Shown: positions 1,128-63,620 of the stretch, in pieces | Position numbering within the stretch: the first letter of the stretch is position 1 | Layout: each line of letters opens with the position of its first letter | From: Antedon mediterranea | Lineage: Eukaryota > Echinodermata > Crinoidea > Comatulida > Antedonidae | NCBI RefSeq assembly: GCF_964355755.1 | Contig: NC_092679.1 | Coordinates: forward strand, 13,506,932 to 13,570,931 | Reading direction: 5' to 3' | Length of the DNA stretch: 64,000 nt | Made by a program: the position numbers and the translations under genes | Notes under the pieces: generated by a model | Databases searched by the model: none | Told to the model about the DNA's origin: nothing | Seen by the model: the letters and a program-made list of their open reading frames with translations, nothing else

Positions 1128-1399
1128 GTCAAATGGCCGAGCGATTAAGGCAGTGGTGCCGTTTTCTGTACCTAAAGAGCCAACAATATCAGCATGGGTT
1201 CAATGTCGACTCGCTCCTAGCTGGTAGTGGAACAAGTTTTCTCGGATAAAACTATAACCTTTGCCTGTGTACATTTTAAAGAACCTAGGTAGGGGATTAC
1301 ACCAGTGAACTGGTTCATAAAATAGACTACCACCTATCTGATAGGACAGTGATTAATTCACTATTGGTAATCCTTGGCCACATGTGCAAAAAGACAAAT
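1128..1399 (+). repeat. tRNA-derived SINE, family A, copy 1
   Basis: The head has a polymerase III A box (TGGCCGAGCGATTAAGG, 1134-1150) and a B box (GGGTTCAATGTC near 1196), as in Leu/Ser tRNAs but too decayed to fold as a gene. The body shares blocks with copies at 14551, 21720 and 54440, including GAGCCAACAATATC and the terminal block AATCCTTGGCCACATG. Confidence 0.8.

Positions 1400-2482: not shown

Positions 2483-2485
<3 letters not shown>

Positions 2486-2518
<33 letters not shown>
2486..2518 (+). repeat. (TTA)n microsatellite
   Basis: About ten uninterrupted TTA/ATT units. A simple repeat with no associated gene. Confidence 0.95.
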
Positions 2519-2521
<3 letters not shown>

Positions 2522-4590: not shown

Positions 4591-5069
4591 TTTAGATGTT
4601 GATAGGAAACATTTTGAATGATCATGAAAACAACACATATAAAAAACATATATCTAAACACTCCCACCTGCATGTAGAACTCTCTTAAAAGAGAAACGAA
4701 ATTAAAATTGCCTAACGCAAGATTAATAAAGAATTTGAATTTGCCTTTAAACTCTTGTTTGGAAAGAATGTTACTTTAAGATGACATAGAAAACTGGCAG
4801 AAACAAAAACAAATGGCACACCATCAAGAACGCCACAAACAAAATTAATTCTTAACAACATATAGTTATGGTCTTGTATCGACTAGTGAGATCACATTAG
4901 CACTGGACAGACTTGATTAATTAAACACTTTCGTTCCAAAAAAACTCAAGGCCAGTGCGTATTACAATAATATTTTTCAAGTTCCGATAATATAATATAT
5001 AGTGCTATAAACTCTTTAGAGTATTATAGGTTTGTTTTGTATGCACCATAAAAGAAAGTAGTAACTTAC

Positions 5070-8000
5070 CCGGGTTGCGTCAACATGTTCCTTCAATCTT
5101 TCTAGTGTCATATTAATTGTAGATTGAGGTAGTTGTACACGTACTTGATGTGCATCGTTGTTCTGGACCGAGATGGAATGACCAGAAGGTAGGAATGGAG
5201 AAAACCCACATAGGAGATCTTTATGACCAATGAAATTTTGGCAGATATTTAACATCATTTTGGCAATTGATGTGCTAAATAAAAAAGAAAATGAAATTAA
5301 AATCCATATGTTTCAATAAAAAAAAAAAAGATAAATGCATACATATAAAAAAGAACACTTTATAAATTAATGAACTCAATTTTATAGTAGACTGCAGAAT
5401 TCCAGTAAAGTCTGGTAAAGGGCAACCACTTTACTCATTCCGATAACTATGTTCTTTAACCTTATCATTTTGCCACTAGACTACGGGCCTGTTCAGACCT
5501 ACGGAGTTATGCTTTCGTATTGTACGCGGCGTACAAGTCCATAGGTCTGAACCAGGAAAAGATTAGTGGAAGCCACCTCGTACGACACTGATATTTCGTA
5601 CGCTACGAAAGCTCAAGGTATGAGTTTAGTGGACGTCGCTTACAATACGAAAGTCACGCATCGATGAATATGACCTAGGTTATATATCTAGCCAATCAAA
5701 TTACAATATTCGCCACATCACATCGTGACATGTGCTCCTCATCGTATAGCCAAGCTGATCCATTTGTTGTGATCGGTAAACATGCGAAAAAATCATACCT
5801 TTTGTTTGTTGTTACACTAGGTATACAGTATTATTATTATTAATATTATTATATTAATTAATTTAAAATGTCATCGAAGCGTGCGCATTGGCGAGAAACC
5901 GAAGTAAAATACCTTATTTCATTGTGGGGAAGCCCTGAGTTTAGAGATCGGTTGGAAGTGAAAAACTGGCGTAAAAGCACCGGCAACAAGATGTCTGTGT
6001 TCAACGAGATGGCGGACACGTTAGCAGATGGGCCATCCTCATAATATTAATAAAGAAGGATTTAAATTATATCCAAACGAAATTGAAGGGGTCGTCGTAT
6101 AAAGCGGCGAAAGACCGAGTAAATAAGTACAAGTACGGGATTTGAACATTTTTCTGCCATAAATGATATTTTAGGCCTAGACCAAATATAAACCCAAACC
6201 CCAAAACGATCGGCTGGTTGGTATGCCTGACAACCCATCGATAATTCCGAGCCCAAGTGTTCGGTCTAGGCCTGTAACTCCTACCCCAACCACTACTACT
6301 TTTAATAACAACGAAGGTAGGTCTATACGTGCGTTAGAGTTTGGTTAATCACCAGCGAGTGACATCATATCCGTTTGTAACGCAACTTCGTTGCAATGAA
6401 TCTGAACACTTTGCTCTTACGACACTCATTAAAATATGACCTTGGCTGTGATACGAAAGCATAACTCCGTAGGTCTGAACATACCCTATATAGCTGCTGT
6501 CATGTCAAAAATCATTCTGTGTAATGGCAGAAACACAACATGTTTAATAGGTGCAGTCATTTGGCACATCGTTAAATCAAGAAGTTGTTTTATTGCACAT
6601 TACATAACAACTTTTTTGATGGAACAATTATTATTTGCTTGGCTATGTTGGCAAAACCTGATTCAAACAGAACTGGTACAAAACAGACCAGAGTTCTTTT
6701 ATAATACAAAAAAGACCTAAGTTCTTTCATGGTACCAAACAGACCTCAGTACTGTTCTGCTATGGTAAAAAGCAGACCCGAGTTCTTCCATGGTACAAAT
6801 CAGACCCGAGTTTTTCCATGGTACAAAAACAGACCAGAGTTCTTCCATGGTACAGAACAAACCAGAGTTCTTTCATGGTACAGAACAGACCCGAGTTCTT
6901 CCATGATACAGAACAGACCCAAGTTCTTCCATGGTACAGAACAGACCCAAGTTCTTCCATGGTACAGAACAGACCAGAGTTCTTCCATGGCACAAAAACA
7001 GACCTACTTAGGTCTTCTTAACTTTAGGAGTCAAAAGTTAAGAAGGGTGGCACAAAATAATACTTTCAAGTAGACAGAAGTTTCTCAAGTCAGGAGCTGG
7101 GTGGAAATATTGAACACATGTGGGTGATTTATCCAACCTCCATCCACCATTAAATTGTTGACAGGCAGATACATGCAATTGGTCCTCCAAAATTCAGAAC
7201 CTCTGAAGGAGGATATGGAGATATTGAAATATTAATGGAAAAAAACTAATGTAGTGACAAAACACTATAAAAAGGATTTAAGTCAGAGGACATCTGTGAT
7301 CCAATGAAGTTGATCCAAAATTCTTTGTATGAAAAACACAATTTCGATGCATGTTTGTAAGAAATCCTGTCTAGATTATTCTATTGCAGTTATTACATTT
7401 TCTTTTCTGCTATAACAAATATGATATAGTTTGGTACAATGTAGAGAAGTTTAGCAGTCATTTGTAATAAAAATTGTTTTATGATTAAAAAAATAGCTTG
7501 CTAAATAATTGCAAATAAAGAAAAGGTAGTTCCTACAGATTAATGACTTTGACATGGATGGTCCTTGAGAATAAAAGAGGTTGTATGTTTGAAATCTACA
7601 CAGCTAATTTTAATTGCAGATGCATGTAGAATGGCAATATAAACTGTGTCATGTCATTAAATGCCCAGGCACCACTTTGTAAGCTTACAATAATGACAGC
7701 TAATATATTTAAAGATATCACAAAAAAGCTGATTGAAAATGTATCAACCTCTTTTCTGATACAACAGTCTCAGAGATCGAGTCACATCATTCATTGCTGT
7801 AAAATTATGTGCATCATTTAATATACTATATTACAAGTTGTGATAACACAATCCAAACATATACGTAAATCATTTAAAAATATATTTTGTGATAGGAAAG
7901 GTAAAAACAGATGATGGATATTTGTTAAAAATTATTCAACGTGATCGTACAGAGGATGCTACAGGGAAAATGTTTGCTTGTGTAGGCAGCAAGTGATAAA

Positions 8001-11000
8001 TTTCACTCTTCCCTGGTGTAGAATAACCAAATGCTACACATACTATTTTTTATTCATCGTTCTTGATTCAAAGAACCTAGCGCCAAGATACTTTAAAAAA
8101 AGTATGTTTTACAGTATTCTTCCTTTCAATAGCCCCATCTTTAAAGCTCAGGTACAGGCATGAATTTTAAATATAATATTTGGTTAATTGTACATAAATC
8201 AAATATTTGTAACAGAAATCAAGACGAAAAAACATGAATTTCCCTTAATATGGTCAAATACAAAAGTTAGCAAAATTCTTCCATAAAAACCAGAAAGACT
8301 TTTTTTCAGTAGTAGGTAGTTAACCTAATGTAATATTAAACATGTCTTGTGACTCCCTAGAAGGTGAAAAAAGATGGTGGATATACAGTGGATAATTTTT
8401 GCTATAGCATGAAAATAAAAGTTGAATAAAAATACCAGAAATGTAATATTCAAGTTATATTACCTATATTTAGTCATCTGATAACATTTTTTACCACACT
8501 GTTTATTTTTCATAGCTTTTTAAAATGCCTCTCTATTTACAAAATTTGTGTACAAAAAAATAGAGATTTTACTGTTTAATTTGAACTATCCCCCCACTGA
8601 TAAGAAAGTGCTTATTTTCAACAAGCTCTGTAACACACATAAAATCCCAAAAATTATGAAACATAGGGGAAACTATAGATCGATAATTATTGGAATGTAT
8701 GATCAATAGAAATTTTTTGCCCGCACCTGGCCTTTAAAGTTCAACAGAAATGTCCTAATTTTGAGAATTCAGACCGTGTTCATAATATATTATTCATATT
8801 TGCTTATCAAAACTAAATACAGTATCAAAAAAGATTTTATTTCAATGCAACTGCGTAAATTTGCGTAATCTTAGATGAATATTTTTCACTCGATGTTGCA
8901 TACTGCATTTAAGCAATTAACGAAAGAGATACAAACAAACAAGTTAAGTCTAAAGGGAATTTCTGTAAAAAGATCAAAGTTGAAGTGTATGTACTGTATA
9001 TTATTATCAAGATAGGGCATAGTGTAATCAAATCAATTTTAATTCAGCATACACTAAAGTGATTATGGATTGGCAATGTTATCATTGTGTTTATGCCTAC
9101 AGACTATTAATGGCATTCGTATGTTCCTCATCATCATTTAACTATGTGTTTAAAAGTGGAGGACAAATTAATAAATAAAAAATTATATTTTAAGAGTAAG
9201 ATTCTAAATAGTATTAAAACCACATTGATTGTGTTTTACTTTACTTTGATTGTGTTATTAGAGTAAAGGTTAGTAGTGGGTTGCTATATTTCTAAGCATA
9301 ATTTTGTAGGGCTGTTGAAATAGTAGCCCACCAGCTCACCATCAGTTTCTAAAAATTGTCATTTTTTAGTTATTAGAAGAGCATGAAGAATGAAAGAAAG
9401 AAGACTGTCATGGACCTGTCAAATAGCAGATGACAATCGTAGGCAATGCAGGTAGTAGGTATATTAATAGGCCACTGTCAATTTAAGATAGGTTACCAAT
9501 AGAGAGTGTGGGGTTATTAATAGACAGAAGTTGGGGTGGGGATTATTAAGTAATAGAGGGAAGCAGGAAGGTACAGTATTAATTAGTCAATGTCTTATTT
9601 AAAGTTGGAGATGTTAGGAAACATCTGAACTAAATCAGATTGGGCAACATGACAAATAGTAACACCAGAATACTGGACTTTTAACAGATGATTAACAGAA
9701 AGATTATGCACACAAACACGCATTTAGGATTGAGAAACAACATTTTTTTTTTTACTAAAAAGGCATTTAAAATGAAAGATCATGTTGCTTCATATGCATC
9801 TAGTACTTGGTAGGAACTTACCAGTGTTGAGTGAAGTGAACTGACTGCTGGGCCAAAGAAATCCCAAAGAAAGAGTGACTCCATACAATCTTGACGTGAC
9901 GCATATTGAGTGAAATTGACTGATGAAAACATTGAAACATGTAAGATTTATATGAGTAAATTATGACATCAATAAACAATGACAACGCTTTGTATATCAT
10001 AGTGTCAATCAAATGGAGTATTGGAAGTCTACACGTCTCTGTTCCTGGCGGAGAACTTTAGTATCTGTGTACCGTAAAACCTTGTAAAGAAACCAATGGG
10101 CTTCTATCTTTAAAACTCTTTAGTTAGACTTCTTTTCGAGATGGGCTTCTTTTCAAGATTACTTTTGCAAACAAAAGGCTTCTTTTTTAAATGAATGCTG
10201 TTCATTGTGTGAATTGCTACTAAAAAAATATGATTTTTGAGACATTCAATGGCAATTTTACATAGTTGGCAAGGAGACAGACAAGAGAAAAAAACCATTT
10301 AGAAAATCAATAAATATTGATTGTTGAGATAATTAAGGATTGTAAGGTCATTAATATCGATATGATAACACGATCATACAATTATTTTCCTTTGACATTC
10401 AAATAACAGTCTATCTTGAAAAGAAGCCCATACAATATTAAAAAGAAGCTAAGTAGACCTGATTTCGAGATGAGCTTCTTTTCAAAACTTTTTCAACCCA
10501 CAGAGGGGAATTTTTTTTCGAGATGGGGTCCTTTTTAGTATACCTTGTAACATCATTGCATACAGTTTTAAATCTAAAATAAGTATGAAAAGAAATTAAT
10601 TAGTGTGCATTTAATGTTTCTTCAAAATGATAAATGCATATTGGATACTTTTAAAAATGAGATATAATATTATAGTGTGTATCACAAAATCAATCAATCA
10701 TGCAATTCAAAAGCCTTTAGTGTTTCTAAGAACTGTGAGTTATGAGTAGCATTAATGATCGATATGATGAAGGTCACATTTTGCCTATTAATGATTTGTT
10801 TGTTTTGTGAATGAATATCTTACAGGAGATGATAAATTAATAGCATGGCTTTAAGATTTTTTCCACAAATCACTGTTATTTTTGCTTAATATGAATTTGA
10901 TTGACATTTTTTTGCCAAATAAAATACTGTAGCTTGAATCATCATCATCAGGCATCCTTCATATCAGTCAAGATTGACTATGGAGATGACATTGGAGAGA

Positions 11001-14000
11001 ATTTCATCCGTTTTCCAGTGAGTCTGTGTGAGTTCCAGTGGCTGATCTAGATTTTCTTTTCAGATACCTTTCTTCATTTTCCATACGATATCTTTCTTCA
11101 CTGTGTACAAGTCCTGCCTTCATACAATCTTTCCATGATTTTCGGTCATCAGCCTTTTTTTCCCAGGTGTTAACATTGATGTCCATTGAAGTCTCTTTTA
11201 CATGCATCTTTGAAACGCAAAAGTGGATGTCCTTTGGATCTTTTACAATTCGCTAGCTCACCGTACAACATAACCTTTGGAGTTCTTGTATCGTCCATTC
11301 TTCTGACATGACCAAGCCATAGTAGTCTTCGCTGTCGAATTAATGTAAATATCGAAGTAATGCCACATCTATCAAGGACACCGTTGTTTGTTACCCTGTC
11401 CTGCCATCTGATATTTAAGATAGTCCGGAGACAGCGGAGGTGAAAGACATTTAGTTTCTTTTCTTGTCTAGCATAGGTTGTCCATGATTCAGCTCCATAC
11501 AAGAGGACGCTAATGACACATGCCATATACACTTTTATCTTCACAGCCACTCTAATATTTTATTTTCCCAAACACGTGTAGACAACTGACTGAGAGTACT
11601 AGAAGCTCTTCCGATTCGAATGTTTAGTTCACAATCTAGAGAGTTGTTAAAAGTTATAACTGAACCAAGATAAGAAAATTTACTAACATTTTCAAGTAGA
11701 AAAATGTTGACAGTAAAATTGTTTTGACCAGTTGTTTTAAACGGTAAAATCTTCGTTTTCTTTACACTTATGTTGAGACCAAAGTGTTCACAGGTACATG
11801 AAAATTTATCAAGTAGAAGTTGTAGACCATAAGGAGAATGGCTGCAGAAACAGGCATCCTCTGCATAAACAAAATCATGAAGAAGAACATTAAATATTTT
11901 TGTCTTAGCTTTAAGTCTGGCTGGGTTGTACAGCTTGCCAGTAGATCTACAATGCAATAAAACTCCTTCCATAAGATTAGGTTCAAATGCTCTTTGGAGG
12001 ACGACTGCAAAGTAAATCCCAAAAAGAAGAGGGGCAAGAACATCTCCTTGTTTTGTGGGTGTGTAGTATATGATCATGGAAAATAATACAACAACCCCTC
12101 CCTTGGGACATCCCTATTTTGGAGACAACCCTATTGAGGGACACTTTCTATATAGTAGTATATGTTTTTACACTGCGACAACCCCTATTCAGGGAACATT
12201 CTTATAATAATGAGACACATTGTTGGGTCCCCTTGAAAAGGAATTCCACTATTATTAGTTGTGCTACCATTTTTTTCCCTGTAATATTTTCTTTTATAAC
12301 ATGGGTTCAAGTACCGTATGTAGCCAATCAGATGCTTTAAACTGATTCACGTGTGCACTCTTTATTTTTTCACTGTCATGCACTGGAGTCTGGAGTGCAA
12401 AAAGTGCACAGCAATAAAGCATACCAGCACTCTGCATGTAAATCGCATTGCAGAATACCGATCGCACTAGGCTGACTGCACAAGCAGGTCGTCTGCACTG
12501 CGGGCCCATTTAAAAAACAAAAAACAAACATTGTATCACCTTGTATATTTTGTCAGACGACTGTTTTTTTATATGACTAGGCTAGCTAGATTGATTCATT
12601 ATGTTGAATTGATTGATTGTATAACAAATTTAAATTACTCAAGAAAATTACATTTCAAATAGTATTTTCACAAATTGATGATTCAAGTTGCTCTTTCAAC
12701 TATTCTTTCATTTGATACTCTCTGAAATTGTATAATCCGTAACAAAATGCAGAAAATTATAATTTCAGATATCTCCATAAAATAATGATAAGGCGGGCGA
12801 GGATTAGTGCATCCTACATGAAAATTACATTTGTAATGAAGTGTTATTTCATCTTGAACAATCATCATTAGCCAACTAATCCGTTGGATTGGGCACTTGT
12901 CAAGTGGCGTGGGATGTTACGCAGCAGAGAGTCTTAGGTTCTGAATAGATGCCTTGTTATCTAGTCTAATGGATAAAAGACCATTACTAATTTAACTCAA
13001 TATTACTGTACATGTGACCAAGGCAATCTCCAGAGATCAAAGGGTTTATTTGTGGCTGCGACATGATCAGATCCACACCCCAGTGTTTTATAATATAGCA
13101 TAATATAAAAAAAACATTATAATTTACTAAAAAATCATTATTGTCACTTCATGAAAAAGCAAAATTCATTTCACATGTATGTAGACTTTCCGTAGTCATA
13201 ATAGTGTTAATTAATTTATGTAATACTGGGTATTTATATTTTGCTCTAAATTTGTTATAATTGTGGCGTGGTGTTAAAATATAAAAGTTGGCAATTACGG
13301 TACATGTATCGTTAAAAAATCCGCACACTATTCTTTATCTCTTTATCGTAAAACGCAATGTACTAGATTTTCACCTAATGATTATCTTTTCGTGACTGCA
13401 CGCTTAACTTGACAGAAAAGAACTCATCATCTTCAGATACGAAACAGAGAAGGCAGAATTAGAATTGATTTAAGTTGAGGCTAAACTCTAACGCTGATTG
13501 AAAATAGATTGCTTTTCGATGAAGAGAATAATTTTGTTATTAAATATTAAATGACGCTATCAACTAGAACGTCAAGTTTGCACGTACAGCCTATTTTATT
13601 ATTGTCATTATATTGTAAAATGAACTAGGTAATTTTCAATCTACAAATTACTTTACTTTCATTTTTTTGTCCACTACTTCTAATCATACGTGAAGTGAAG
13701 AAGAGAATTGGCAGCGCTATTGGAATTTCACCGCAGGGGATGGTTTATGAGAGCCACCCTCAATTTTTTATTTTGTACGCAAGAATATTTTTTTCGTAAA
13801 CTGAACTTGCATTAGAACCATTATCACCATTAGATTCACTTTTTTGTGCACATGATGCTAACTTAACCAATCAAATTGCAAGGACATACTATTAAGGTGT
13901 TATAGTAGATACATTGGCATCTGGGTTGTTTATGCGGCTATATTCAATTCAGTTCAGAATTCTGAGTACAAGCCTCAAGGCTCAGAGACCTTGAATCTCT

Positions 14001-17000
14001 TATATATGTCTTCTTGTAAGTAACATTAACTTGGATTTAAAAGGCATAGTGTACAAGGTTTGATCTGGGCGAAACCATCACTAATGCACAACAACATGAT
14101 AATAGTGCTCTTGGGAAACACAGACCTTTCAAACCAATTCAAATTAAACTCGCATAAAATACTCTACAAAGAGTATACGCTTTTTCTACGGCAATTACAG
14201 TTGTTGGAATTAGGCCAAGAAACTTCGGGCAACATACAGTAAAACAAATAAAGATTATTAAATGAAGTATATGAAGAAAAGTTGATTACTTCTCAGACTC
14301 AACTTATATACAGTATTTTGTTCGATATTTGTGTTTCATTTTCACTTTTTCAAATTTATTAACGTGAACAAAAAGCGGTCAGCTTTTCCATTTCCAAATC
14401 ATTTGCTGTAGTGAATTCTAGTCCCTTGAGCTTTTAATGAAATTGGTACTTTTCATAGCTTTTCTTCGTTTTTAAAGTGAACATTTTTGTAACCAATCAG
14501 TCGAGCCCGGAAAATTCACTCGTTTAATCATATTTACCAAAAGTCTTTAGGCACATGGCCAAGGATTATCAATAGTAAATCACTATTAACTCCTTAATCA
14601 TACTGGACCTACGTTTTATAGTCCTTATCTGAGAAGACTTTTCCACAACCAGAATTATGATCGAGTCGCCATCGAACCCATGCCGATATTGTTGGCTCTT
14701 TAGTTACGGTAATTGGCGTCCCTGCCTGAAATTAACCACTCGGCCATTTCACTCACGCCTTACTATTGCTAATATAAAGTGGATCTACACTTTGAGCTGA
14801 TTAATCATCTATGAAAATATTCTACCCACGACATTGAAATGTGAAATTTTATCTTTAAAATCAGAGATTGCACAAGTTTTTTCCATCTCATTTACATTAA
14901 AATGCCAATCCTAAAACATGTTTTAAGCCCAATGGCAGCTTTAAAGAGGTATTGTAGACACGTACATGTTAACATTTGAAAGAGAAATAGTGGTAGAAAT
15001 TTAACGTCAGAAAACTTGGCAAATGCTCTAAGTTTAAATAATACAAAATGCATAGCCTCCAGTCTATGATGATTCTTACACTTACGCCCGTATTCTTAAA
15101 CCGGACTTTAGTCGTAGTTCGAGCTAAAACTAAAAAAATGACGTCATTTTAATTCATAAACCGAACTTCAACTAAATCACCGACTAAATCAGGCCAACCT
15201 CGACTAAATCGAGACGGATTTTGATCGATTTTTTTAGTCCTTGAGGGGGCAGACTAAATGGTCGACTAAATGTTTTTTAAACGATGTTTATAAAAAACGT
15301 AACAGTCATTGAGTTGTTATATTGGCCAGATATTGAAGAATGAAATATCTATATTTATATTAGCTTAATTAAATATACATTGGTATAAATTATAATAATG
15401 AAAATCATCTTTATTTACAACTGTATACAAATTACATTATTTTCTTCGCGCAAGTCCGACTTGAGCTACGTCACGCCATAGCGACAATGGGAGATGCGGC
15501 AATTCACCACGCGATGGAATGTTTAGGGGGCCTAGCGCTTTCTTGTCACGCTATGAAGTGCGTGGTTCGTGGCGATCATACTTTGTTGGGGGCCTAGAAA
15601 ATATAAAAGTTACCGTACCGCCATGGTTCCTAAATATATTTTGAAGATTTTATTTGTTGTTAATCAAATATACTTCACTGTTAAATTAATACTGATATTG
15701 TTCTAATAATTAACGATTAAAATTATTTTTCATGTATATAGTCCTGATGCGTAAAAAGTGTTGTAAGAAATGGAAAGTGATATCAATGCGCAAAATTTCG
15801 TCTGCTCCTCAAATACTCTCTTGTCATTGGCCAATGTATAGCCTTTGTTACCCAGACGTGTGCAACTCGACTAAAAGCTCGACTTCATTAAGTCGAACTG
15901 CAAACTTCGACTACTTCGTTTTTGAATCGAATTTGAAGTAATAGCTCGAACTACGACTTTTCCAAGTCGAACTTCGAACTACGACTAAAGTCCGGTTTAA
16001 GAATACGGGCGTTAGTGTCATTACATTTTGACAAATTTGTGAAATGGTTCCAACATACAAGAAAAACAATCATTTCTTATTTTCAACAAAAGCGGTAAGA
16101 ACCGCCACTTAAAATCATATTAATAAAAGTGGTAGACTACCATGTAAGTCAATACATAGAATGTTGTTTTCTCATACATCCATTATCAGTATGCCGATGA
16201 TTAAGATAAAAAGAATTATCTGTATTATTTGATTTTATCTATAAAAGGGTGCGCTCATATACCCTGTAGAATTGTACAGAATCTTTAATAAAATGCCTTG
16301 GGTAAACCTGATAATGTATCAAAGTGATTATTAAAGAAAAAAAGTTACTTTACACATTCAATATTACACTAGAATTTCATTACTAAAAATCAAACCCAAA
16401 AATCGATGTTTATCAGTGCAACAAACACAACATTTTAATTCAATTAAAAAAACATTGATTTATAGTACATTCAAAAGACAAGTAACAAAAACAATAATGG
16501 CAAGAGATATTTTATAAAATGGACAAAGGCAGGATCCCAAAACGATGAGAATCTTGTGGTGGGATTGCTTTTATAAATTAATTAAAAATAGATATTTATG
16601 AAAAAATAAATAAATTAATTAAAAATAATGAATATATAAATTATTAATACCGGTAGATAAAAGTTGAAAAAATTAAGTAAAAATGATGAGCAGAAAAAAG
16701 TACAGCTGCAGGGCATACTGTAGTAATGAAAAAGATGACAAAATGAATAAATTAAATCTAGCAAGTCACGGAACGAGACAAAAAGTGATTTTTAATTTTC
16801 TTGGAGAATGAGTAGCAGGTGGCAGCACAAGAAATTGAGGGGGGTAAATTGTTAAAGATAAGTGGTCCAGAATATCTAATGCTGTGTTAAAAATAGTTGG
16901 ATAGGGATAATAAATGTTATAAATGTTGTGTCATATTTATGGTATTATTGGAAACGAAAGGGTTGTAAAAAAGACAAGGGAGAATGGAGTGAGTAGCCGA

Positions 17001-26000: not shown

Positions 26001-29000
26001 TAATTTGCAAATTCACTCATCAATACAGACTGTTTGTCAGACCAAAAAGGGGAAGGGAGATGGGGGAATGAAGGGATTAAAAGCAATATATAAACAAACC
26101 TGACATGTGTATTCTCTTGTTGAAGTAGAGTTTTAAGTGCATTTTTGGCTTAGAATCTCACCTCACAGATGGTGAGCTATTGTCATGTAACTCAGACGTT
26201 GTAGTTTACGCTGAGGCATAATAAAGCTTTGAACAAGAATGACAGCAACAAGCGGACACGGTTCACAGCACAGTCCACCTGTTTAGACGCCCGTGCCACA
26301 CAACACTCAAATTAATTTGCATTCATCACTCTCTACCATTAAATAAAAATATATTTTACCTTTTATTTTTATAATTGTTCAGAATTCGAAGTAGTTTTGC
26401 TAGACAATCAGGCTCTTCTGAAAATGCTGATGATACTTTTTTAATGTAATTCCTAGTCTTCTCTGTTGTTCTTTCCTTTGGTTGTGCTTTAACAACAGCA
26501 ATTGGAGTTTTTGATCCAGCCTTTTTAGATGAATACAAAAAGAAAAAGTTATTTTAATTTATAATAAATTCATATTTATTGTTTAATTAAAGAATAGTGA
26601 TGTTCCGCCACATCACAAGTGTCGCCATCCAATCGAATTTGAATTATACCATGGTCTAATCATTAGAATATCTGCATAAATGATCAAGTGTGTTAAAGAG
26701 TCGCTATCCAATCAAATTTTAATGTTGGTCCTTTTCTAATTTCTTTTTTTTGTTCCTATTCTTATACCATTTCCTGTTTCTCGTGTCTTTGTTTTTATAT
26801 TTTTTAAATATTTAAAAATACATTTCTTTCTCTTGGCATCATTTCTCAAAATGTTGTTCTCTCAAACTTGCATTAAGCTGGAGTTTCTAAAAATCATTAT
26901 AAATATTGAAATAATGTTTGATGATAATGGTTTGGTTTAAACATCCAAAAATACCAAACATTCTAAACAGTTTAATAATTAAAAAATATAGGCTGAAATT
27001 TCTATATTTATATAACAGTAACCATTAGAAAGTTAAATTTGTGTTGATCAACAATAGAATATGATGATGATGACATATACGTTATTGCTTAATACCATAA
27101 ACGCTGTCTTTAATCAAGCTTAATGTTTTTAGACAAAATTAATAACAGTAAAATCACAAATCCGGATTCCTTCTAAAATATGATTTCAAGGAATTGGAAG
27201 ACAAAAATGTCAACAACCAATATACTGATAGTTAGTAAATTATAAAATTCATTAAAGTACAACACCTATTAGAGAGACACTTTCGGGATTTTACTTATTA
27301 TTTATTGATTAGAAACTCGACACAAATAGCAAAAAATACATCAATATTCATTGAGAAAACAATGGAACAATAATGATAAAAATAACCGGGGTTAATGGTG
27401 TGTCCAGAGAGAATAATGGGATGATAGCCAGACACAAAAGTGTCTGTTAAAAGGGTGGGGGGGGGGGGGGAGGGGTTGTCCTATGATTTAGGGTTGGTTG
27501 CAGTGTTAAAAACTATTCCCCTAATTTGACGGGAAAGTTCATTAGGCATTTCTCTCCCTTAGCAGAATCAGTCCATTTCACCCGGGTTTTTGAAAAAATC
27601 CGGGTAATAAATCTTGGTCTGTTTTAAACAATTTACGAGTTCTGATTGTTTATCTTGACACACATGAGAGGCCAGCTGGAGTGTGACAGATACTTCACTA
27701 CAGAAATTGCTGAAAACCATGTAGGAATTTTCATGACCTGTCCAGGTGACCTTGTTGTAAATGACCTAATAGTACCCTTGGGTTGTATTTAATTGGCAGT
27801 TAATATAATCAAATTACAATTGTGTGTTTTATGGGCTGACACTCTGGACAGGCATGTGGACCATTTCTGCTAAGGGAGAGTTTTGCCTCATGTTCCCTTT
27901 AATAGTGGTGTACAAATGAGGGTCTCTCTGTAAATACATTTATTAGATTTATATAGAACTACCACAATGTTATCTATCTGTCTATTATTATGCGACACTA
28001 ACACTTTCTTTCAGTATCATACTATAGTTTATAGAGTACATCTGTCATTGAAAGTATTCTCACTTTTAGTATTGTTGTGATTTGACAGGGCTACGTGTAA
28101 GTAAAGAAGTAAAGTTGGAACTCCAAAGAAGTATTAATTATGCTTCCTGTATTATTGGAATTGAGTATCCATTTTTTTTTATAAGAGAATATTCTAAAAA
28201 AACACATCTAATTTTACAAGACTCAACATATCCATTGTACTTTTTTTTTAAAGTTTTTAGGAGCAGCAGACGCTTCCATAGTCAGACGGAGTTTTGTCTT
28301 AATATTAGTAAAAATATATATATTTTTGCACATATGGCGTTTCATACGTGTATTACTTGAGTTTGGATACTTCGTCTGGGGAAACACGCACAAGTCACAT
28401 GGTTTGACACCAAGAATTCTTGGTGCATAAATTATCCAGTTGACTAGTTTAAGCCGCATGCCATTGGCTACTCATTCGTACGCAGTTTTAATATTCATAT
28501 TTCAGAATTCCAAAGACTCAACATCTAAGACGATGCGCATGCGCTATGTTACGTTTAGACAATGTGTACTTGGATTGATGAAAGTTTCTGAAGGCTAGAA
28601 ATGATTTTATATGCCAAGTAGTCTGGTAAACATTTGATGGGATTCTTCCCAAGACACGTGAAAACTCGTCTTGATATGATAGGCTAGCTTCTCCGCCAAA
28701 TCAAACATTGAATGGATCATTTATTATGCGGAGATAATTTGATTTAATTCCCACCCAGATCCTGTCCTGCTATGTGTGGAGGAGTAGCCCTGTTGTGTGC
28801 CGGTCGGTGGTGGTATGTACCTTATTGGCGTTTTATTTGACAGGTCATACGTACGAGTTGAGTAGCCCTACGAAGGAGGCCTAGGCCAGGACTAAACAAT
28901 TAATAAACAAAACAACTTGGCAACACGATTTTATATTTCCACAGTTGTTCAGTTTCGATCGTACATTCAGCACTGTACGTACGTACTCGATCTTTTTTCA

Positions 29001-32000
29001 TTTTGAAACAAAATGATCATTGGTTGATTCGAAATACATATTTACACTGCCCGCCCCATATAGCCAAATACGGTATGATAACATACGTCATTCTTATCGG
29101 ATGTTTGCGGTCTGCAAATCGATTTCTATACATGTTTCACAAGTCTGTATTTTCAGACAAAAATCGCTGTCGAAATAAAAACAAATAAATAAAAAAAAAA
29201 GACAATACAGACTTGAGGCAAGTCTAACGCTTCCAGTTCATCACCTCTTGTAAAATAGATTCCGATGATGATGATATTTGACCTTTGTAAACCAAAAACA
29301 TTAAAGAGTGAAACACACCTTTAGGTAACAAACTACATACAACATCACCTTTTATTTCACACAGTGAAAAAACTATATTTATGTTAATGACACAACAGGG
29401 ATTAGACGTACAAAATGTAACAATATCTCTGTTATGCTAATGATTTAACTAAGTTATTTTTACTTTATGCATAAAATAATATGTATTATGGTTTATTATT
29501 TATAGATATAACTTAAGCCCAATAAATTGACTTGACTGAATTGACTTTTTGTAACTTTGTGTATATTTTAAACATATTTTATTGATATTTGTATCGTTAA
29601 ATAAGAGAGAGTCAACCTTACTGTAATATATTATGGGCCTGTGGCCTAAATATGAAAAAAAGGCAGGCACCATTGCCTGGAATGAATAAGTTGTATTGAA
29701 TTGAATATGATTTGATATCCTGATTTATTACACATTTGCAATCGCAAACTAAGTATAGTTGATGCGCTATAGTATACATGGTTGACCACATAAATACCAG
29801 GGAAATCCACATGCACGAAATTCTTCGGTGGATTTCACATTTTTACAATTTGTTACATTTTGCAGATGTGAAAGTGATATAAAACTGCCAAAATATGTTT
29901 TTTAATACTGTAAATCCTTCAGCGGTTGAACAACAATCACGAAATCGCCAAAAGCGCAAAATTCTTGATGATGTTATTTTAGATATTGACTTGCTTACTT
30001 ACAGTGAATCAGGCCTTTGGGGGCCAATTGCTGTCTATATCGACAAAAATATTTATAAAATAGATTCAATAAATTCTGTATTCTTTGAAACATTTACATT
30101 TATAATCTCTGATTATTTATATTGTTTGTTCAGATGTAATTTCAACTGACGGAAAAAAACTCCTGCGTCTCATTGAAAACAATAGGGACTTTATGAAACC
30201 CGACGGGAAGCCACATGACGGTGCTCATGAATAATTTATGCATGAGCTTTAACAGAGTGGGCGGAGCTTAGCGTGAAATTCCGTCGTCTTAACTTTTTGA
30301 GGACGATAAAGTTGCCATTTTCCTGTTTACTGAGAACGACTAGAAATAATGTACAATAACCTTAAATATACAGTTCAAATTACACTTGGAAGGCTAGGCC
30401 TATGGTGTATCACCAGAGCCAATTGATTCAGAAGAGCCCTGCGACACGAGACGGGGCAGGGAGAGATGCTGCCGGTCGTCGTCTTTCGCGCAAGGGTGCG
30501 TAACTAATATAGTGGCTATGTTGACTGTATATGAATTTACGCTCTAGCGAACACTGGATATTCGTCGTCCTCCCCTAACCGTCGTGTTTCGTAAAGTCCC
30601 TAATGAGGAAATTCCTCAGCGATCGTTGGTTACCTTTCTTTCTAGAGTTGACGGTTTCTTTGGCGTCTCTTCAACAGCATCTGCAATGGGCGAGTCAATT
30701 TGTATTGTGACTGGACCATCATTTTCTATATGGACTTGCATATAAGCACCAAACTGACCATCTAGTAAAGTAATCAAAATATTAACAATCATCTAGCAGT
30801 TTGTTTCATTACAACAAAATCATGATTTTAAGCTTTGAAAATGTCTTTACACGATGGGTTCGGTCCGGTGCCCTGAGAAAAATATCATGGAAAATGGGTT
30901 TAGTGGTAAAGCAACCCTCTTAGTGCCACGGGCGGCGTTAGAAACCCCATTTAAGATCGTTCACACCAAAATCCGTACCAGTTTTGAACAGTGAGCATGA
31001 TGAACTTGTTTGACACGCTCAATGCTCACAATATTTTTCTGAGGGTGCCGTACCGAATCCGGACGCTATGTGAAAGCAGCTTTAGGGTTCCTCGCTCCTC
31101 ATTTGTACAACATGGACTGAGATGGAATAGAACAGTGGATGTTGAATAGCGAATCTCTCAACTTATGAAAATATACTGCCCATTCAACTCATAAACATTC
31201 ATACTAGTATTAAGTATTTTTGATTTAGCTTTTTGCTTATTTTGTTAGTATCTCTACACAGATCCAGCCACTGATACTCATAGCAGCATTTTCATTTTTT
31301 CAGTAATTTGATTTATTATATAATTATTATAATATATTTTTTTAGCTCTGACAGAAAAATGATCAACACATTGTTATCCTTTTATACTCATTGGGATATA
31401 AACTCAATATAAGTTATTTATGTACTGTGTACACATGACCAACAGCTTTTACATTTAAAGAGAGAATTTAAGTATCTTGCCCAGGATAAAATCAATGGGA
31501 CAGACATGCTAGTCATACCTTTCAAGCCATACTCTTAAATATGACAATTATTAATAATAGTACAGGATAAATCTAAAATGTTCACAACATCTTTCAAAAA
31601 GTGTTTTTTTATATTAATCTTGGAAAAAGATTGATGAGTCTTAATACCCACCTACTCCCACAAATTGCAAATAAATATGCATGCTTGTTGTATTTAAAAT
31701 AACTTTATATTATTTGCAACAATTATATGATGTAAAGAACATTAATTATCCCTCAAAAAATAAAATACATTAGTAGAACCTTAAAATTAAGGGGACACAT
31801 TGAATAGAGGTTGGCCAATTAAAACATATATATTTGCCTCATTCATTTCATGAACACCTGAATAAGAGATCATGTCCCAAATGTCCAATTCTTCAGATAA
31901 ACTTGGCATACATTTTTAGATAATATTTTGCATCCTAATCTGGTGACTTCATAGAAAATTAAAATTATTCATGTATACAGTGTACACAAAAATAAAAATC

Positions 32001-35000
32001 ATAATATTTTTTTTATATGCCTCTAATAAAATTTGTGTACAAAAGAATAGGGAAATAACTGTTTAATTTATCTAATAAAAAAAAAATCTGTAAAGCACTG
32101 TCTACACTATCAGTATCAAACTAGTTTGTGTGATATGTCCAAGTATGGTAGTGATATTACCAAATATGATAGTGGTATGACATCATCATGTCCATATATG
32201 GGCACATCACAATTTGTTTGTCACATAAAGTTTGATAATGTAGACAAGGCTTTACATAGGGGGGGGGGAGGGGAAGACTATAAATCGATAATTATTGGAA
32301 TGTATGATCAATAGATTGTTGCAAATGTGACACCTGCTCTTTAAGATGATCACTTCAATATCTTCTGTCGCTCCTACACATTTTTCTAAATTTACCTTTG
32401 CATCATCTGCCTTAATATTAGACTGAAATAACTTTTTTTCGTTAGCAACATTAATTAACAATGCAGAGGGTAATTTCCTTTTATTTTCAAATAGTGAGTT
32501 AAAATAGTTACATATCTAAGTTTAGAATCGCACAAATGGCCAGATGGTAAATAGATAATAGTTTTTAAACAAAATTATTAATAATAATAGTAATCACCAA
32601 TGATACATTTACCAATGGTGACCCATTAAAAGGAAAATTGAACTGACTTTATAAAGATATATTGCCCCCTGAAAAAATAATCAAGCACTTTTTTTAATAT
32701 GCCATTTAAATGTAACATATTTACACTTACAGTATTTAATTTGACAAAAAAACTGTAGTTTTGGGATGAATTTAACCATTTATTTGATTTTTTAAAGTGA
32801 AATCACTATTTGTTCGTTTTTTTTAAAGGAAATGAATAACTTTATTAAAACTGCAAAATGGCATATTCAAAGTCTGATTATATTAATCTTCAGCCTTATA
32901 CAAATAGCATAAACTATACCTTTGATCAATTCTGGTTTATAATCTTTGCCTAATAGTTGTAGAAATTCTTCATAAAACAGTTTTGATTTTTCTCCTGGCA
33001 TAGCACAATGGAAGTCTGGTTTATTTCCCTTTAGAATTGCGTATAATGTGAACTGCAAAGAAAATTGGACATGCTATTGAAAAAATGATAGTTTGTTGTT
33101 GTAGTAGATGCAGAATTCACATTCACATCGCCTAACAAACTCAAGAGTGTTTTCCTCAATATGCACATAGCTCGCGGCATCCATGACAACAAAATTCCCT
33201 AATGATGTACGAGCGCGCGCAATCAGATGGGAATATGAACTAAATCCGGACCGGACCAGGTGTGGAAGAACAATATACAAACGTTGTTTGGAAGTTCACT
33301 CTGGAATGGCCTACTGTACCTGAATGAATTAAGAAAACAAAACAATTACAACCGTTTTAAATCACTTAAGATTCATTTAAGTGAATTGTTACCGGTGGTC
33401 TAGGATGGTTGCAGTGAAAATAATTAAATAAAAATGGTATAAAAAGTTATAATTAATAATGAGATTGAGAACATGCTTTGAATTGAAGTTTAGTTTCAGT
33501 TTAAGTTGTTTTAAAATTATGTTTAAATGTGCCGTAGGGCCCGTCGGAAGAGCAGTTTTATTTTATTACTGAGAGGGCTACCCTACTGAAAGAAAACGAA
33601 ATAAAAATAAAACCATCATGTCGCTATAAACTATGTTCAAAAGCAAATATGTTTAATTATATAATATTATATTATATATTGTATTCTTGCAATTAATTGG
33701 TTTATCACATGTCATTTGGAACTAGCCCTACCTGTGATAAGTGATAATGCGTTCTAATGCATGTAGTTTTCAATAAACATTTTGAGAATTTTTGCTATGC
33801 GATCATCAGTTAACTGTAATCAACTTGTTGTGCGCACTGTCTATAAATGTTCTAATCCATGTCTAAAGTTAGAGCCCTGCCTTTTAAATGGCCTAGGTTC
33901 CAGCCTAGCATTCCTCAATGATTTACAATGGATAAATTGAATAAGGTAGGTGTGTAATTAAACAAATAATGAATGTTTTTTATTCGTTGGTTGGAGAGAA
34001 TATTTAATTGGAAGAGAAATTGACTGCTCTATTTCAACTCGGCTTCCGCCTTGTTAAAAATAGAGCAGCCAATTTTTCAATACATGAAATATTCTCACAT
34101 CCAAATCATAAAACATTCATTATTTGTATACCAAACATGTGCATTAGGAAAAACCCTGGCACTACAGACATATAGACAAAGTTAATAATGTAATACCATG
34201 CTACAGTGCACTAACCTTACCTGACTAACACATAGAATTTCAAACTGCTTGTCTTTGACACTTTTACACCATCGTTTACCACCATCGTCATCAAATACAC
34301 GCAAATTTAAAACCTTTCTTGCACTGAAAAAAAACTCAATTAAATGTTAAAATACTGAATAAAACTATCTGTAACACATAGCCTTTATTATAGACCATTG
34401 CTATACCGTGGTCTAACCTGTAAAATTAAAGCCTCCTCAAAAGAAGTCTTGAACTGTCTTAAACCTCTGTTTATGTCAACATAGCATCGCCGATACAGAC
34501 CTTGGTATTATTTATTGTGAAATACAATGTACAAGACATTGAACAAGTTTGGATGATGCATAATAACGATGATCTTATATAGAAAGATAGATTTTCTCAC
34601 ATAGAAACGTATGTACTGTTTTTGTGGCTTGAGCAAGCATGACAAACATTACCTTATTTGGTATTCTACACAAACAGTGCGCCCTCAATTTGTCACTTTT
34701 CACGGCCTTAGCGAAGACTGTTTTATAGCAATGGTCTAACAGTGGTGGCTTTAATAAGACCATCTATCTGATAAAGTCGGCTTTAATCGGGGAGTTAAGA
34801 CCATCAGTTAAGACTGTTTTATAGCAATGAACTAACAGCGGTGGCTTTAGTAAGACCGTCTATCTGATAAAGTCGGCTTTAATTGGGGATTTAAGACCAT
34901 CAGTTAAGACTGTTTTATAGCAATGGCCTACAGCGGTGGCTTTAATAAGACCATCTATCTGATAAAGTCGGCTTTAATCAAGGAGTTAAGACCATCAGTT

Positions 35001-36984
35001 AAGACTGTTTTATAGCAATGGTCTACAGCGGTGGCTTTAAGACCATCTATCTGATAAAGTCGGCTTTAATTGTCAGTTAAGACTGTTTTATAGTAACCCG
35101 CTCCTGATCATTACTTACATGTATTCTCTTTCTTTAGGTGTATCATCTTTTGTAATTCCTACCAGAACACATAATCCACGTCCAATTGAACTCACCAGTT
35201 CACCACCAACTAAAACATGAAAGTACTGTATGTTAAATAGGAAAAACTGAAGACATAGCAGGGTTTGAGACTAGTTAAGCATCTCTACTTGATATTATGC
35301 ACAATTTCAATTGTATGACGCACTATACAACCGGGAGAGGTGAATAATTTGTCTGATGTTGTTTGTGCTTCATACTTATGTATGACCATGATGCACACCT
35401 GCATAACAAAAATACTTACCTTTAAGTGAGAAAGGCGAACACATTTTAAAACTAGAAAGCCACTCCGAGAGGGCATACCTCCGCCTACTGTAAAATTCTC
35501 CTACATAAGATTTCTCCGGTAAAAAAAAAAATATATATATATTTGTGTGTGTCTTAATGCTGTTTGTGATTTAGGCTAATTTCATTACAAGCATGTGTAT
35601 GCGAGTTTGGTGTAATGGTTATGTAACAAGCCTTTCAATTAACAATAGCTTCAGTTGACTAATAATAGAACAGCAACGCGAAAATCAAACGAGTGAATTT
35701 GAAAAGAAATAGGTTTTTTAAACTACTCGCATCAAAAAACGTGCACATTAAATCAAATTATGTTTTAAAATTACAAATCACAAATTCTAACTCTTGCCTC
35801 TTGTTAAAAAATGAAGTTTTTTGGACAAGTAGTTCTCGAGAAAATGCAATTTCAGTTTACTTGTTACTTTAAGACTGCTCGCCGGCTTTTGAAAAATTCT
35901 GTCCTATCTTTTAACACTAGCAGGTCTAAAAAAGTATAATAAAAAGTGGTCCAGAATTGGGACTGTGGTCCCAAAATTTAATGGAATGGTCCTTGACCAC
36001 ATATCTATCTGTCTATTCATTTTGGTAAAGATCTTGTAATTACTTTGAGTAATCCTGCTAACAAACAAACAAACAAACACACGCTACCGATTACATATAC
36101 CTCCTTGGCGGAGGTAAATTAGTAACGGACCGTAAAGAACAATGACGCACCATGACTCTCCCTTTGACGTTTCTTCAATGATTAATATTTGTCCAGGCTT
36201 GGCCCGTGGTGAGTGATGGACATTGACTCACCATTTAGATTTTTCGGACTCGCCGAGATACGAATTCAAGATCTTGACAACAGGGTACTGTACTCGCTAT
36301 GTATTTTGTATATTATTATTTAGAGATTTTCAAAAATGTCATGTGTGTATGTACTATGTTTGATGCTCAATTTGAAATTGCGGCTTGAAATTGCGCAAAT
36401 CGTTCAAATTGTGCACAACATACATACTGTACATGCATAGACTAAACCCACAATAACATTTTCAAGAAGAGAATCAACCCTCCTGGTTCCATATCCTCAT
36501 CACTAGCTACACCACCAGCTCGTCAATCGAATCAAAAAAATATAATATAAGCCTACATCACATATTGTAAGTAAGCATTTTACCTTTAACCGACCAATCA
36601 GAACTGAGAGTTGACGTCTTGCTCTACTCAAATAAATGTATTCGATAGATATCCACTTCCGTGCATACAAAGCCTCTCACTAGATTTTTTTACTGAGGGG
36701 TGTTATATTATAAGACCATACCATACTGACAAGTAAGAGCATGCAGGTGAGGCAGCCAGAGTGTGGGCTGGGCTGATCTGATTGATGGATGCTGATCAGT
36801 CTGTCTGGCTGACTGACTGACTGAGTCCATATGCATGGAGGGAGAGGTATTATACCTCCATCATATGGTGAGTCTGTGTCACTAAAAAAATCAATTAAAC
36901 TAAATCCAGTGAGTGAATTTTTCGTTCTTATTTAACGTTACCTGATACACTGGCCTTCGTGACACGTTGTATTACTACTTTCAT
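5070..36984 (-). CDS. DTD1: D-aminoacyl-tRNA deacylase 1 with C-terminal PAH domain (3' end unresolved)
   Basis: DTD enzymes hydrolyse D-amino acids (and glycine mischarged on tRNA-Ala) off tRNAs in the cytosol. Seven exons read on the minus strand: 36942-36984, 35119-35209, 34221-34323, 32920-33052, 30634-30761, 26360-26520, 5070-5274. All junctions are GT-AG and phases match, giving 288 codons without a stop. The start is the ATG at 36984, opening MKVVIQRVTKASVS as in DTD1. Residues 1-147 are a full DTD fold with both signatures: SQFTLYA (78-84, catalytic) and NDGPVT (137-142, the Gly-cisPro motif that rejects L-aminoacyl substrates). Residues 148-185 are a basic linker. Residues about 186-260 match a Sin3-type PAH domain, absent from the vertebrate DTD1 proteins I know. 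The last exon ends in CGG before gtaagt, so at least one more exon exists. Enzyme identity is certain; the fusion rests on splice-phase logic, not on a transcript. Confidence 0.93.
5485..6486 (+). mobile_element. PIF/Harbinger-like DNA transposon remnant with Myb/SANT frame
   Basis: Terminal inverted repeats of about 35 bp (TGTTCAGACCTACGGAGTTA near 5490-5509, its complement near 6462-6481) bound a 1.0-kb element. At 5868-6044 a 58-codon frame opens MSSKRAHWRETEVKYLISLW. Beyond a frameshift it resumes as KLKGSSYKAAKDRVNKYK (about 6079-6130). Together these are the two ends of the trihelix/Myb-SANT-like domain, which is the second protein of Harbinger elements. The transposase is absent. Flanks are TAC/TAT, compatible with a decayed 3-bp target duplication. 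It lies in the 21-kb DTD1 intron. Confidence 0.75.
6690..7008 (+). repeat. 28-30-bp minisatellite with CCATGG core
   Basis: About eleven tandem units built on GAGTTCTTCCATGGTACAGA; the best-kept neighbours (6921, 6949) are 28 bp apart. The palindromic CCATGG recurs in most units. Long open frames on both strands here are products of the repeat. Confidence 0.92.
7010..10920. other. Intronic DNA with dispersed repeat fragments, no gene seen
   Basis: Apart from the repeat at 8510-8760 and a short-period motif at about 10090-10560 (variants of TTCGAGATGGGCTTCTTTT in both orientations), I see no supported feature. Frames are short and without recognisable domains. Confidence 0.5.
8510..8760 (+). 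repeat. Interspersed repeat, copy 1
   Basis: It shares blocks with 31985-32345: ACAAAATTTGTGTACAAAA, CTGTTTAATTT and CGATAATTATTGGAATGTAT with GATCAATAG after it. No coding capacity is evident. The second copy carries an inserted MITE, so this one shows the undisturbed arrangement. Confidence 0.7.
10936..12077 (-). mobile_element. Degenerate LINE reverse transcriptase, C-terminal half
   Basis: Three minus-strand frames make one broken reverse transcriptase. The first (12077-11541) holds TKQGDVLAPLLFGIYF and the catalytic box as YAED, with Glu for the first Asp, then KTKILPF and SKFSYLGSVI. The second (11550-11170) continues ISVLLYGAESWTTY, NIRWQDRV and RRLLWLGHVRRMDD. The third (11207-11004) has NVNTWEKKADDRKSWKD. 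The order is that of LINEs widespread in marine invertebrates. Frameshifts near 11545 and 11190 and the altered box mean it is dead. The 3' end reads CTGATGATGATGATTC, a short tandem tail. Confidence 0.88.
12085..12250 (+). repeat. GGGACAC/CCCCTATT repeat, copy 1
   Basis: Blocks such as AACCCCTATTCAGGGAACA and TTGTTGGGTCCCCTTG recur at 23660-23815 and 41960-42075. Non-coding, possibly MITE-like; no clean ends seen. Confidence 0.6.
12260..15080. other. Intronic AT-rich DNA; a SINE and no gene seen
   Basis: No supported exon on either strand. The only recognisable element is the SINE at 14551-14759. Confidence 0.5.
14551..14759 (-). repeat. tRNA-derived SINE, family A, copy 2
   Basis: On the minus strand it begins GGCGTGAGTG, with A box TGGCCGAGTGGTTAATT and B box GGGTTCGATGG. 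The body matches copy 1 (AGAGCCAACAATATCGGCAT) and ends AATCCTTGGCCATGTGC. Confidence 0.85.
15085..16011. mobile_element. Harbinger-type MITE with TTA target duplication
   Basis: The ends are near-perfect inverted repeats of at least 38 bp (CGCCCGTATTCTTAAACCGG inward). They are flanked by TTA at 15082-15084 and 16012-16014, the 3-bp target duplication of PIF/Harbinger. Sub-terminal CGACTAAA/GTCGAACT motifs repeat. The 927-bp interior has no convincing transposase. Well-preserved termini suggest fairly recent insertion. Confidence 0.88.
16020..21715. other. Intronic DNA with a LINE remnant, no gene seen
   Basis: Apart from the LINE piece at 16840-17400 this is AT-rich non-coding sequence. 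Part of 20690-20880 is less AT-rich and holds homeodomain-like AATTAATGATCATTCA, but nothing establishes a function. Confidence 0.45.
16840..17400 (-). mobile_element. Degenerate LINE reverse transcriptase C-terminal fragment
   Basis: The minus strand reads, across several frames, LKIIINNHKILSVKSIKFL and TIDN, then LILSHLSYGIIFWANIYPTN with INKLSILQKKAI, then LNLLKLSDINLSQQG. This is the usual order of motifs after the catalytic box in non-LTR reverse transcriptases. Frameshifts separate the blocks and no box is present. Confidence 0.78.
21720..21960 (+). repeat. tRNA-derived SINE, family A, copy 3
   Basis: A box GTGGCTGAGCGGTTAAGAC (21730-21748) and a weak B box (AGGATTCAAGCG). The body has GCTCCATGGTTCTGGTGG and AAACCGTAAGTCCAGTGT, shared with the 54440 copy. 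The 3' end runs into a LINE fragment. Confidence 0.75.
21961..22485 (+). mobile_element. LINE 3'-end fragment
   Basis: The frame opening FKSYCISMYCAALWCDF, then SLQVCYNNAFRKILK, is the C-terminal segment of another LINE reverse transcriptase lineage. It breaks after about 60 codons. The 3' end at 22450-22482 has an AATAAA-like motif and (GAATT)n tail repeats. Confidence 0.78.
22620..22850 (-). repeat. tRNA-derived SINE, family B
   Basis: On the minus strand the head TTGGATAGCCGAGTGGTTAG (A box) and CCGGGTTCAATTCCCGAC (B box) is close to a real tRNA. It continues without a 3' acceptor end into a body containing CAGCTGTAAATGAGTACCTG and an internal GAGCTCCTAACAGCTC hairpin. It is a SINE, not a tRNA gene, and its body differs from family A. 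Confidence 0.85.
23660..23815 (+). repeat. GGGACAC/CCCCTATT repeat, copy 2
   Basis: Blocks GGGGACACGCTATTAGGGG, CTTGTTGGGTCCTGAAGGTG and TAATAGGGGTTCTGCTT match the copies at 12085 and 41960. Confidence 0.65.
24690..25015 (+). repeat. Interspersed repeat, copy A
   Basis: Shares with 33665-33870 the order CTTGCAATTTGATTGGTTAA, TTAGCCCTACCT, CTAATGCA, TTTTTGAGAA and TTGTGCGC. A related fragment is at 42287-42550. Non-coding. Confidence 0.65.
26521..30183. other. DTD1 intron 5, distal part
   Basis: Intron between DTD1 exons 6 and 5. It holds the MITE at 27543-27888, a poly-G run at about 27460 and LINE-tail-like scraps near 29520 and 29690. No exon is supported. Confidence 0.5.
27543..27888. 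mobile_element. MITE with CTCTCCCTTAGCAGAA ends
   Basis: The sequence AGGCATTTCTCTCCCTTAGC near 27543 is mirrored by the complement of GCTAAGGGAGAGTTTTGCCT ending at 27888. That gives about 28-bp imperfect inverted repeats around a non-coding interior of roughly 290 bp. Confidence 0.7.
30184..30601. mobile_element. MITE with AGGGACTTTA ends and AAT target duplication
   Basis: Inverted repeats AGGGACTTTATGAAACCCGA and, inverted, AGGGACTTTACGAAACACGA bound a 418-bp element flanked by AAT on both sides. Its right end is 31 bp inside intron 5 from the DTD1 exon 5 donor. Confidence 0.75.
30830..31083. mobile_element. MITE upstream of DTD1 exon 5
   Basis: Long imperfect inverted repeats: GGTTCGGTCCGGTGCCCTGA with GAAAAATAT on the left, the complement of ATATTTTTCTGAGGGTGCCG on the right. 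About 254 bp. It starts 69 bp from the exon 5 acceptor. Confidence 0.7.
31985..32345 (+). repeat. Interspersed repeat, copy 2, with a nested MITE
   Basis: Same outer blocks as 8510-8760, but split by a hairpin MITE at 32091-32254 and a poly-G run at 32260. The MITE is absent from the other copy, so it inserted later. Confidence 0.7.
32091..32254. mobile_element. Hairpin MITE, GTCTACACTATCAAA family, copy 1
   Basis: The ends TAAAGCACTGTCTACACTAT and (inverted) TAAAGCCTTGTCTACATTAT pair, making most of the element a long hairpin around CATGTCCATATATGGGCACA. Three more copies lie at 39559, 42891 and 53731. Confidence 0.85.
32700..32885 (+). repeat. Short interspersed repeat shared with 54000-54235
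   Basis: TTTATTAAAACTGCAAAATG with GCATATTCAAA here matches TTTATTAAAACTAGAAAATG with GCTTATATTCAAA at 54177, with preceding AT-rich blocks also related. No terminal structure seen. Confidence 0.55.
33665..33870 (+). repeat. Interspersed repeat, copy B
   Basis: Partner of 24690-25015 (see there). It is followed at 33960-34130 by an imperfect inverted repeat centred near 34045: TGACTGCTCTATTT on the left and AAATAGAGCAGCCA on the right. Confidence 0.6.
34391..35104 (-). mobile_element. MITE copy with internal 95-bp tandem expansion
   Basis: An inverted-orientation relative of the element at 37663-38194; both share TAGACCATTGCTATACCG and the TTACCTTATTTGGTATTCTA type block. From about 34715 to 35097 the terminal part is repeated four to five times with a period near 95 bp (AGACTGTTTTATAGCAATGG per unit). 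Its outer end (CCGCTCC, 35104) is 14 bp from the donor of DTD1 exon 2. Confidence 0.85.
35463..36117. repeat. Dispersed repeat bounded by CCTCCGCC/GGCGGAGG
   Basis: Begins GGCATACCTCCGCCTACTGT and ends ATACCTCCTTGGCGGAGGTA. Near the right end, AATCCTGCTAACAAACAAAC resembles a repeat found in many marine animal genomes. It lies in DTD1 intron 1. No frame. Confidence 0.6.
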
Positions 36985-63612: not shown

Positions 63613-63620
63613 CAAATGGT

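Follow-up and report, generated by a model that had tools for sequence, protein, structure and literature searches.

Gene content of the locus

We examined a window of 64,000 nucleotides (G000:C10:13506932-13570931) in the 354-Mb, 18-contig genome of the crinoid Antedon mediterranea. The sequence is free of N in the window and in the downstream stretches L011-L015. Seven exons on the minus strand read in frame from a D-aminoacyl-tRNA deacylase (DTD1) into a PAH domain. All the GT/AG borders and compatible phases of the original prediction were found, and the seven-exon DTD1-PAH observation is confirmed at the sequence level. Exon 1 (36942..36984, 43 nt) starts with ATG and is matched from residue 1 onward with 2okv, a solved DTD1 that we take to be the human protein. 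Exons 2 (35119..35209, 91 nt) and 4 (32920..33052, 133 nt) are placed by splice borders, translation and alignment to 2okv. The last residues of exon 3 (34221..34323, 103 nt) are the SQ of an SQFT motif, and exon 5 (30634..30761, 128 nt) contains NDGPVT and ends in phase 0 after LERK. Exon 6 (26360..26520, 161 nt, phase 0 in and 2 out) encodes a linker and the first half of the PAH, and exon 7 (5070..5274, 205 nt, phase 2 in and 0 out) the second half and a segment shared with SIN3. The length of introns 6 and 7, 21.1 kb and 15.6 kb (the latter up to the candidate terminal exon discussed below), tells against the joined structure.

The DTD1 part is complete, as had been proposed: exons 1-5 (residues 1-166) fill the whole Tyr_Deacylase profile (PF02580; positions 1-144 of 144, E 7.9e-54 and 182.3 bits in the joined product, cut-off 25), and their product aligns with 2okv without gaps over residues 1-165 (E 4.6e-71). 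The translation contains SQFTL and NDGPVTI; SQFT and the Gly-Pro motif (NDGPVT; Gly-cisPro) are, we assume, the DTD1 motifs, and deacylase activity is predicted here. A genome-wide Tyr_Deacylase profile search gave five matches, four of them DTD1 exons of this locus and one at C10:23008964.

The PAH assignment is marginal in Pfam/HMMER, with PF02671 matching the joined product at 23.0 bits (6.5e-5), 1.7 above the cut-off of 21.3; scanned alone, the PAH stretch scores 21.0 bits, 0.3 under it. Exon 7 obtained no score in a Pfam frame scan of window positions 1-9999, and exons 6-7 are absent from the nine matches of a genome-wide PAH profile search. The best solved match of the PAH stretch (phmmer) is SIN3 in 8kc7, with a full-sequence E of 2e-14 that covers two domains of the same chain, the best of which is PAH1 (i-E 3.3e-6). 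The stretch also matches PAH1 of Sin3a (2rmr, E 7.7e-7) and of Sin3b (2czy, E 1.3e-6). Protein-like composition is +0.07 bits per residue for exon 6 and -0.03 for exon 7, against +0.14 for DTD1 exons 1-5. The PAH of the product probably folds. DIE2_ALG10 and other sub-cut-off Pfam matches in the product were taken as chance, and none of the 18 pattern matches in the viral contigs searched was a relative. Away from SIN3, a weak PAH-profile match (21.1 bits) with one internal stop lies in L007 (G000:C10:15087944-15088021, plus strand).

Several other genes surround the locus. Head to head with DTD1 is a plus-strand gene (38225-51614) with TPR exons (TPR_14, 2.3e-7), presumably CFAP70, whose start we read at an ATG around 38.2 kb, some 1.2 kb away from that of DTD1. 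An LRAT-domain gene (L012 217-648, minus strand, 1.1e-7) and a Na/Ca exchanger-like gene (L015 528-857 and 7391-7603, minus strand, 5e-15) lie downstream; human DTD1 adjoins SLC24A3, and the exchanger-like neighbour would presumably make this old synteny. The C-terminal coding stretch of PRPF18 is found at 63134-63641 on the minus strand (Prp18, 1.4e-41), directly downstream of an apparent histone H4 gene (63676-63999; Pfam Histone 23.1 bits, sub-cut-off). A histone-type 3' stem-loop follows it, and the nucleotides beyond its stop codon are very similar to those beyond the stop of H4; it looks as though coding sequence of PRPF18 had become attached to a histone 3' end. Retroelement fragments with open frames lie at 11173-12077 (minus strand) and 61662-62471 (plus strand). 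Two retroelement frames match RVT_1 at 27.6 and 24.1 bits, below the curated cut-off of 29.6, and the retroelement-type frame at 11173-11550 matched no Pfam family.

Probable linkage of the PAH exons to DTD1 and the 3' end

Exon 6 has no in-frame methionine, and 12 codons before its first codon there is a stop, so the start must come from an upstream coding exon. Exon 5 of DTD1 is the best candidate that we found for this upstream partner. Among the 3,489 minus-strand GTs in the window, about 2% have as good a score as its donor, and human DTD1 likewise extends past the point where exon 5 ends. Alternatively, exons 6-7(-8) might derive from a partial duplication of SIN3 and form a separate small gene whose 5' exon lies at 30.6-26.5 kb, DTD1 ending within intron 5. 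The 4.1-kb gap between exons 5 and 6 could accommodate a promoter and a small first exon, and read-through of exon 5 gives VTNDR and then a stop, after five codons. However, the gap holds only seven phase-0 initial-exon candidates with a donor of at least 4, all of them weak (best score 3.4), and both the lack of a methionine in exon 6 and the fair exon 5 donor, placed where human DTD1 also continues, speak against a separate gene.

If DTD1 did not end at the VTNDR stop, it could do so in a small terminal exon, and three phase-0 candidates in intron 5 pass our filter: 30438 GSSESIGSGDTP, 30339 SFSVNRKMATLSSSKS and 29166 (RFLSENTDL). The first of these is weakened because it sits in a dispersed repeat of about 210 bp (30390..30606, minus strand), which we label SINE-like and which has at least 41 matches in the genome (E<=0.001, itself included; 40 of 206 candidates scored). 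A sigma-70-type scan of intron 5 carries no meaning for an animal genome.

When 265 internal-exon candidates were ranked ad hoc, exons 6 and 7 came 22nd and 24th, and DTD1 exons 5, 2, 3 and 4 came 1st, 5th, 9th and 57th; a shortened exon 7 (5162-5070), which would cut the PAH, was 6th. The gap candidate 28891-28855 (phase 2 to 0) ranked 23rd, scoring about as exon 6 does, and a further exon before exon 6 is therefore possible. Its phase-0 end also suits a separate PAH gene, a variant of which may have a non-coding first exon and then a further coding exon before exon 6. Taken together, we regard a separate gene as unlikely, and exons 1-5 and 6-7 probably lie in one mRNA.

A product of 288 residues had been predicted. 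The exons do read in frame, but position 5070 is a splice donor (CGG/GTAAGT, phase 0) and not the gene end. Among the 3,489 minus-strand GTs, about 0.2% reach the score of this donor, and the 288-residue product is thus probably incomplete. We sought a terminal exon in about 40 kb downstream plus 10 kb. The candidate chosen (C10:13496413-13496285, minus strand) lies outside the window, 15.6 kb past exon 7; it is in phase 0, has a T-rich acceptor and encodes 43 aa, CTRPEGAEGHVRSLSTGSVSIATMTPQMEELIELLETTVGDDD. In a composition ranking run post hoc, after this exon had been chosen, its two nested acceptors took ranks 1 and 2 of 3,589 on both strands by protein-like composition. No second copy of the exon was found, and it has no match among solved structures. 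Of the 99 internal-exon candidates scored between exon 7 and this exon, the top one (10.7) has phase 1 at both borders and the highest 0-to-0 candidate reaches 6.0; given these phases and scores we added no exon. The terminal exon would probably bring the product to 331 residues, or to 209 with the PAH cassette skipped. If it is right, the cassette lies inside the DTD1 gene.

The terminal exon carries GAEG.V.S, which resembles the GAEGDVSS of the human DTD1 end. This likeness was spotted by eye before being ranked, and post hoc it placed the exon first of 4,113 candidates over the last 19 residues. With the whole human DTD1 tail as reference, seven candidates outscore it, and 1,258 of 20,000 shuffles (6.3%) equal the likeness. 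Because shuffles match it so often, homology to the vertebrate tail is only hinted at. For the exon 6 linker against the DUE-B tail, 8,510 of 20,000 shuffles were as good.

Other terminal exons were considered. Near 3.2 kb, one candidate (KSSYKRKTFC...) is weak, at -0.32 bits per residue, and another (RRVLTKEK...) does not fit exon 7 in phase. A second terminal exon might be IPAYYTEPLVSFQRFPVLDYPWLDDYHGVDGVFISTPVLPRTQS (IPAYYTEP...; L012 7938-8073, C10:13494938-13495073, minus strand), which ranks 90 of 3,589; it was rejected as a partner of exon 7, since its phase 2 fits exon 6 only.

The PAH exons could also belong to a gene downstream, for instance the LRAT-domain gene some 24 kb away, and DTD1 would then lie upstream by chance. 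The LRAT exon (L012 217-648) is on the same strand, but an in-frame start upstream of exon 6 would still be required, a terminal-exon candidate with a stop intervenes, and the minus strand of window positions 1-9999, L011 and L012 yields no Pfam family above cut-off except LRAT. The minus-strand frames of window positions 1-9999 and L011 gave no family at all. We consider this assignment very improbable.

Origin of the PAH exons

Searched against the whole genome, the PAH product matched three places, namely the two window exons and a locus on contig C2 (38% identity). The latter is the SIN3 gene, as PAH exons and Sin3_corepress occur together there. PAH1 of this SIN3 is encoded by two exons, which we placed at 155 and 274 nt. 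By BLASTP, the window PAH product aligns with it without gaps, 28 of 84 residues being identical (33%), and the match extends beyond the PAH into a VQ.ND..Q segment. The inner intron falls at the same aligned residue in both, in phase 2, and splits a Ser codon as AG/C. The outer borders of the exon pair are also phase 0 in the window and SIN3 alike, those of SIN3 being placed by us from frame and splice signals. SIN3 PAH2 of the same genome reads open through the intron site of PAH1, and for that reason the intron points to PAH1. Alignment scores of the window PAH are 123 with its own genome's PAH1, 107 with Sin3b PAH1 and 98 with fungal PAH1, compared with 74, 77 and 90 for PAH2s (90 for the fungal PAH2) and 33 for Sin3b PAH3. 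The source of exons 6-7 is likely the SIN3 PAH1 exon pair, copied long ago.

The exons might instead be a decayed partial copy of SIN3 PAH1 that is not translated, their splice signals being leftovers. The low composition scores of exons 6-7 and the weak Pfam score are in keeping with decay, as is their wide divergence from a SIN3 PAH1 that is strongly conserved (PAH1 of this genome scores 112.7 bits against Sin3b PAH1). Nevertheless, 122 stop-free codons, a gapless alignment and intact borders at 33% identity would be hard to maintain without selection, and the match passes the PAH end into the VQ.ND..Q segment. We therefore judge decay to be improbable.

The DTD1 intron after exon 5 is in phase 0. 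We propose that a two-exon SIN3 PAH1 module was copied long ago into this intron, after the catalytic exons of DTD1. Since both ends of the module are in phase 0, the frame would be kept and the cassette could be included or skipped. We put the probability of this reading, a DTD1-PAH fusion via a SIN3 PAH1 module in a phase-0 DTD1 intron, at roughly 0.7. DTD1-PAH would then likely be a new domain architecture born by exon shuffling. In the open-access papers searched we found no description of DTD1/DUE-B combined with PAH or SIN3, in agreement with the original prediction, which knew of none, and nothing on Sin3 and PAH domains together with exon shuffling. The SIN3 PAH1 source, the 0-0 geometry of the module and the probable further terminal exon outside the window are new here.

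Predicted protein and comparison with known systems

The predicted protein consists of DTD1 (166 aa), a linker and PAH (122 aa) and a probable terminal exon of 43 aa, 331 aa in all. The deacylase part would work as in other DTD1 proteins and would dimerise. DUE-B is reported to homodimerise via the N-terminus (PMC3520825). As the DTD1 part would dimerise, each dimer would carry two PAH clefts for short amphipathic helices; PMC6168491 describes the hydrophobic cleft of PAH domains as binding single amphipathic helices of repressors. DTD1-PAH should not itself recruit the SIN3/HDAC core, since no HDAC-binding Sin3_corepress region was found at the locus. It would either tether DTD1 to nuclear partners bearing Sin3-interaction-type helices or act as a competitor of SIN3 for such partners. 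Any such binding role is tentative and, in our estimate, somewhat short of an even chance. Identity to SIN3 PAH1 is only 33%, so that ligand choice probably differs from that of SIN3; having drifted far, the PAH may have acquired new ligands. Partner helices could perhaps include MEELIELLE of the protein's own terminal exon. We speculate, with considerable doubt, that one gene gives rise both to plain DTD1 and, through the skippable cassette, to a PAH-DTD1 that binds Sin3-interaction-type helices, tying tRNA proofreading to chromatin or replication factors.

A PAH outside SIN3 is also found in a GON4L-type protein. This is likewise a non-SIN3 gene with PAH, but a different protein, and at the locus in this genome (L008) whose translation we recognise as GON4L-type the PAH match covers only profile positions 23-45. 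SIN3A and SIN3B PAH1 share with the window exons the domain, the intron position and phase, and the post-domain segment. Whereas SIN3 combines three or more PAH domains with Sin3_corepress, the product here has one PAH at 33% identity; both matches of a genome search for Sin3_corepress (PF08295) lie at the SIN3 locus on C2 and none here. If our reading is correct, this would be a clear case of exon shuffling in which the donor exons are still identifiable in the same genome.

Vertebrate DTD1/DUE-B has a like catalytic part (gapless over residues 1-165), and both proteins carry a C-terminal extension. In contrast to the DUE-B tail, the extension here is a PAH domain, perhaps with a short terminal exon. 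According to PMC12262730, the vertebrate tail is restricted to vertebrates and binds TRESLIN, TOPBP1 and CDC45, and the DUE-B gene is dispensable in zebrafish. Vertebrate DTD1 has also been reported at origins of replication. The replication role of DUE-B is disputed, and the crinoid gene, if the fusion is real, would represent a separate lineage that added a co-repressor docking domain to DTD1. The C-terminus of DTD1 would then appear to be a repeated site of nuclear add-ons, and the locus a clean test system.
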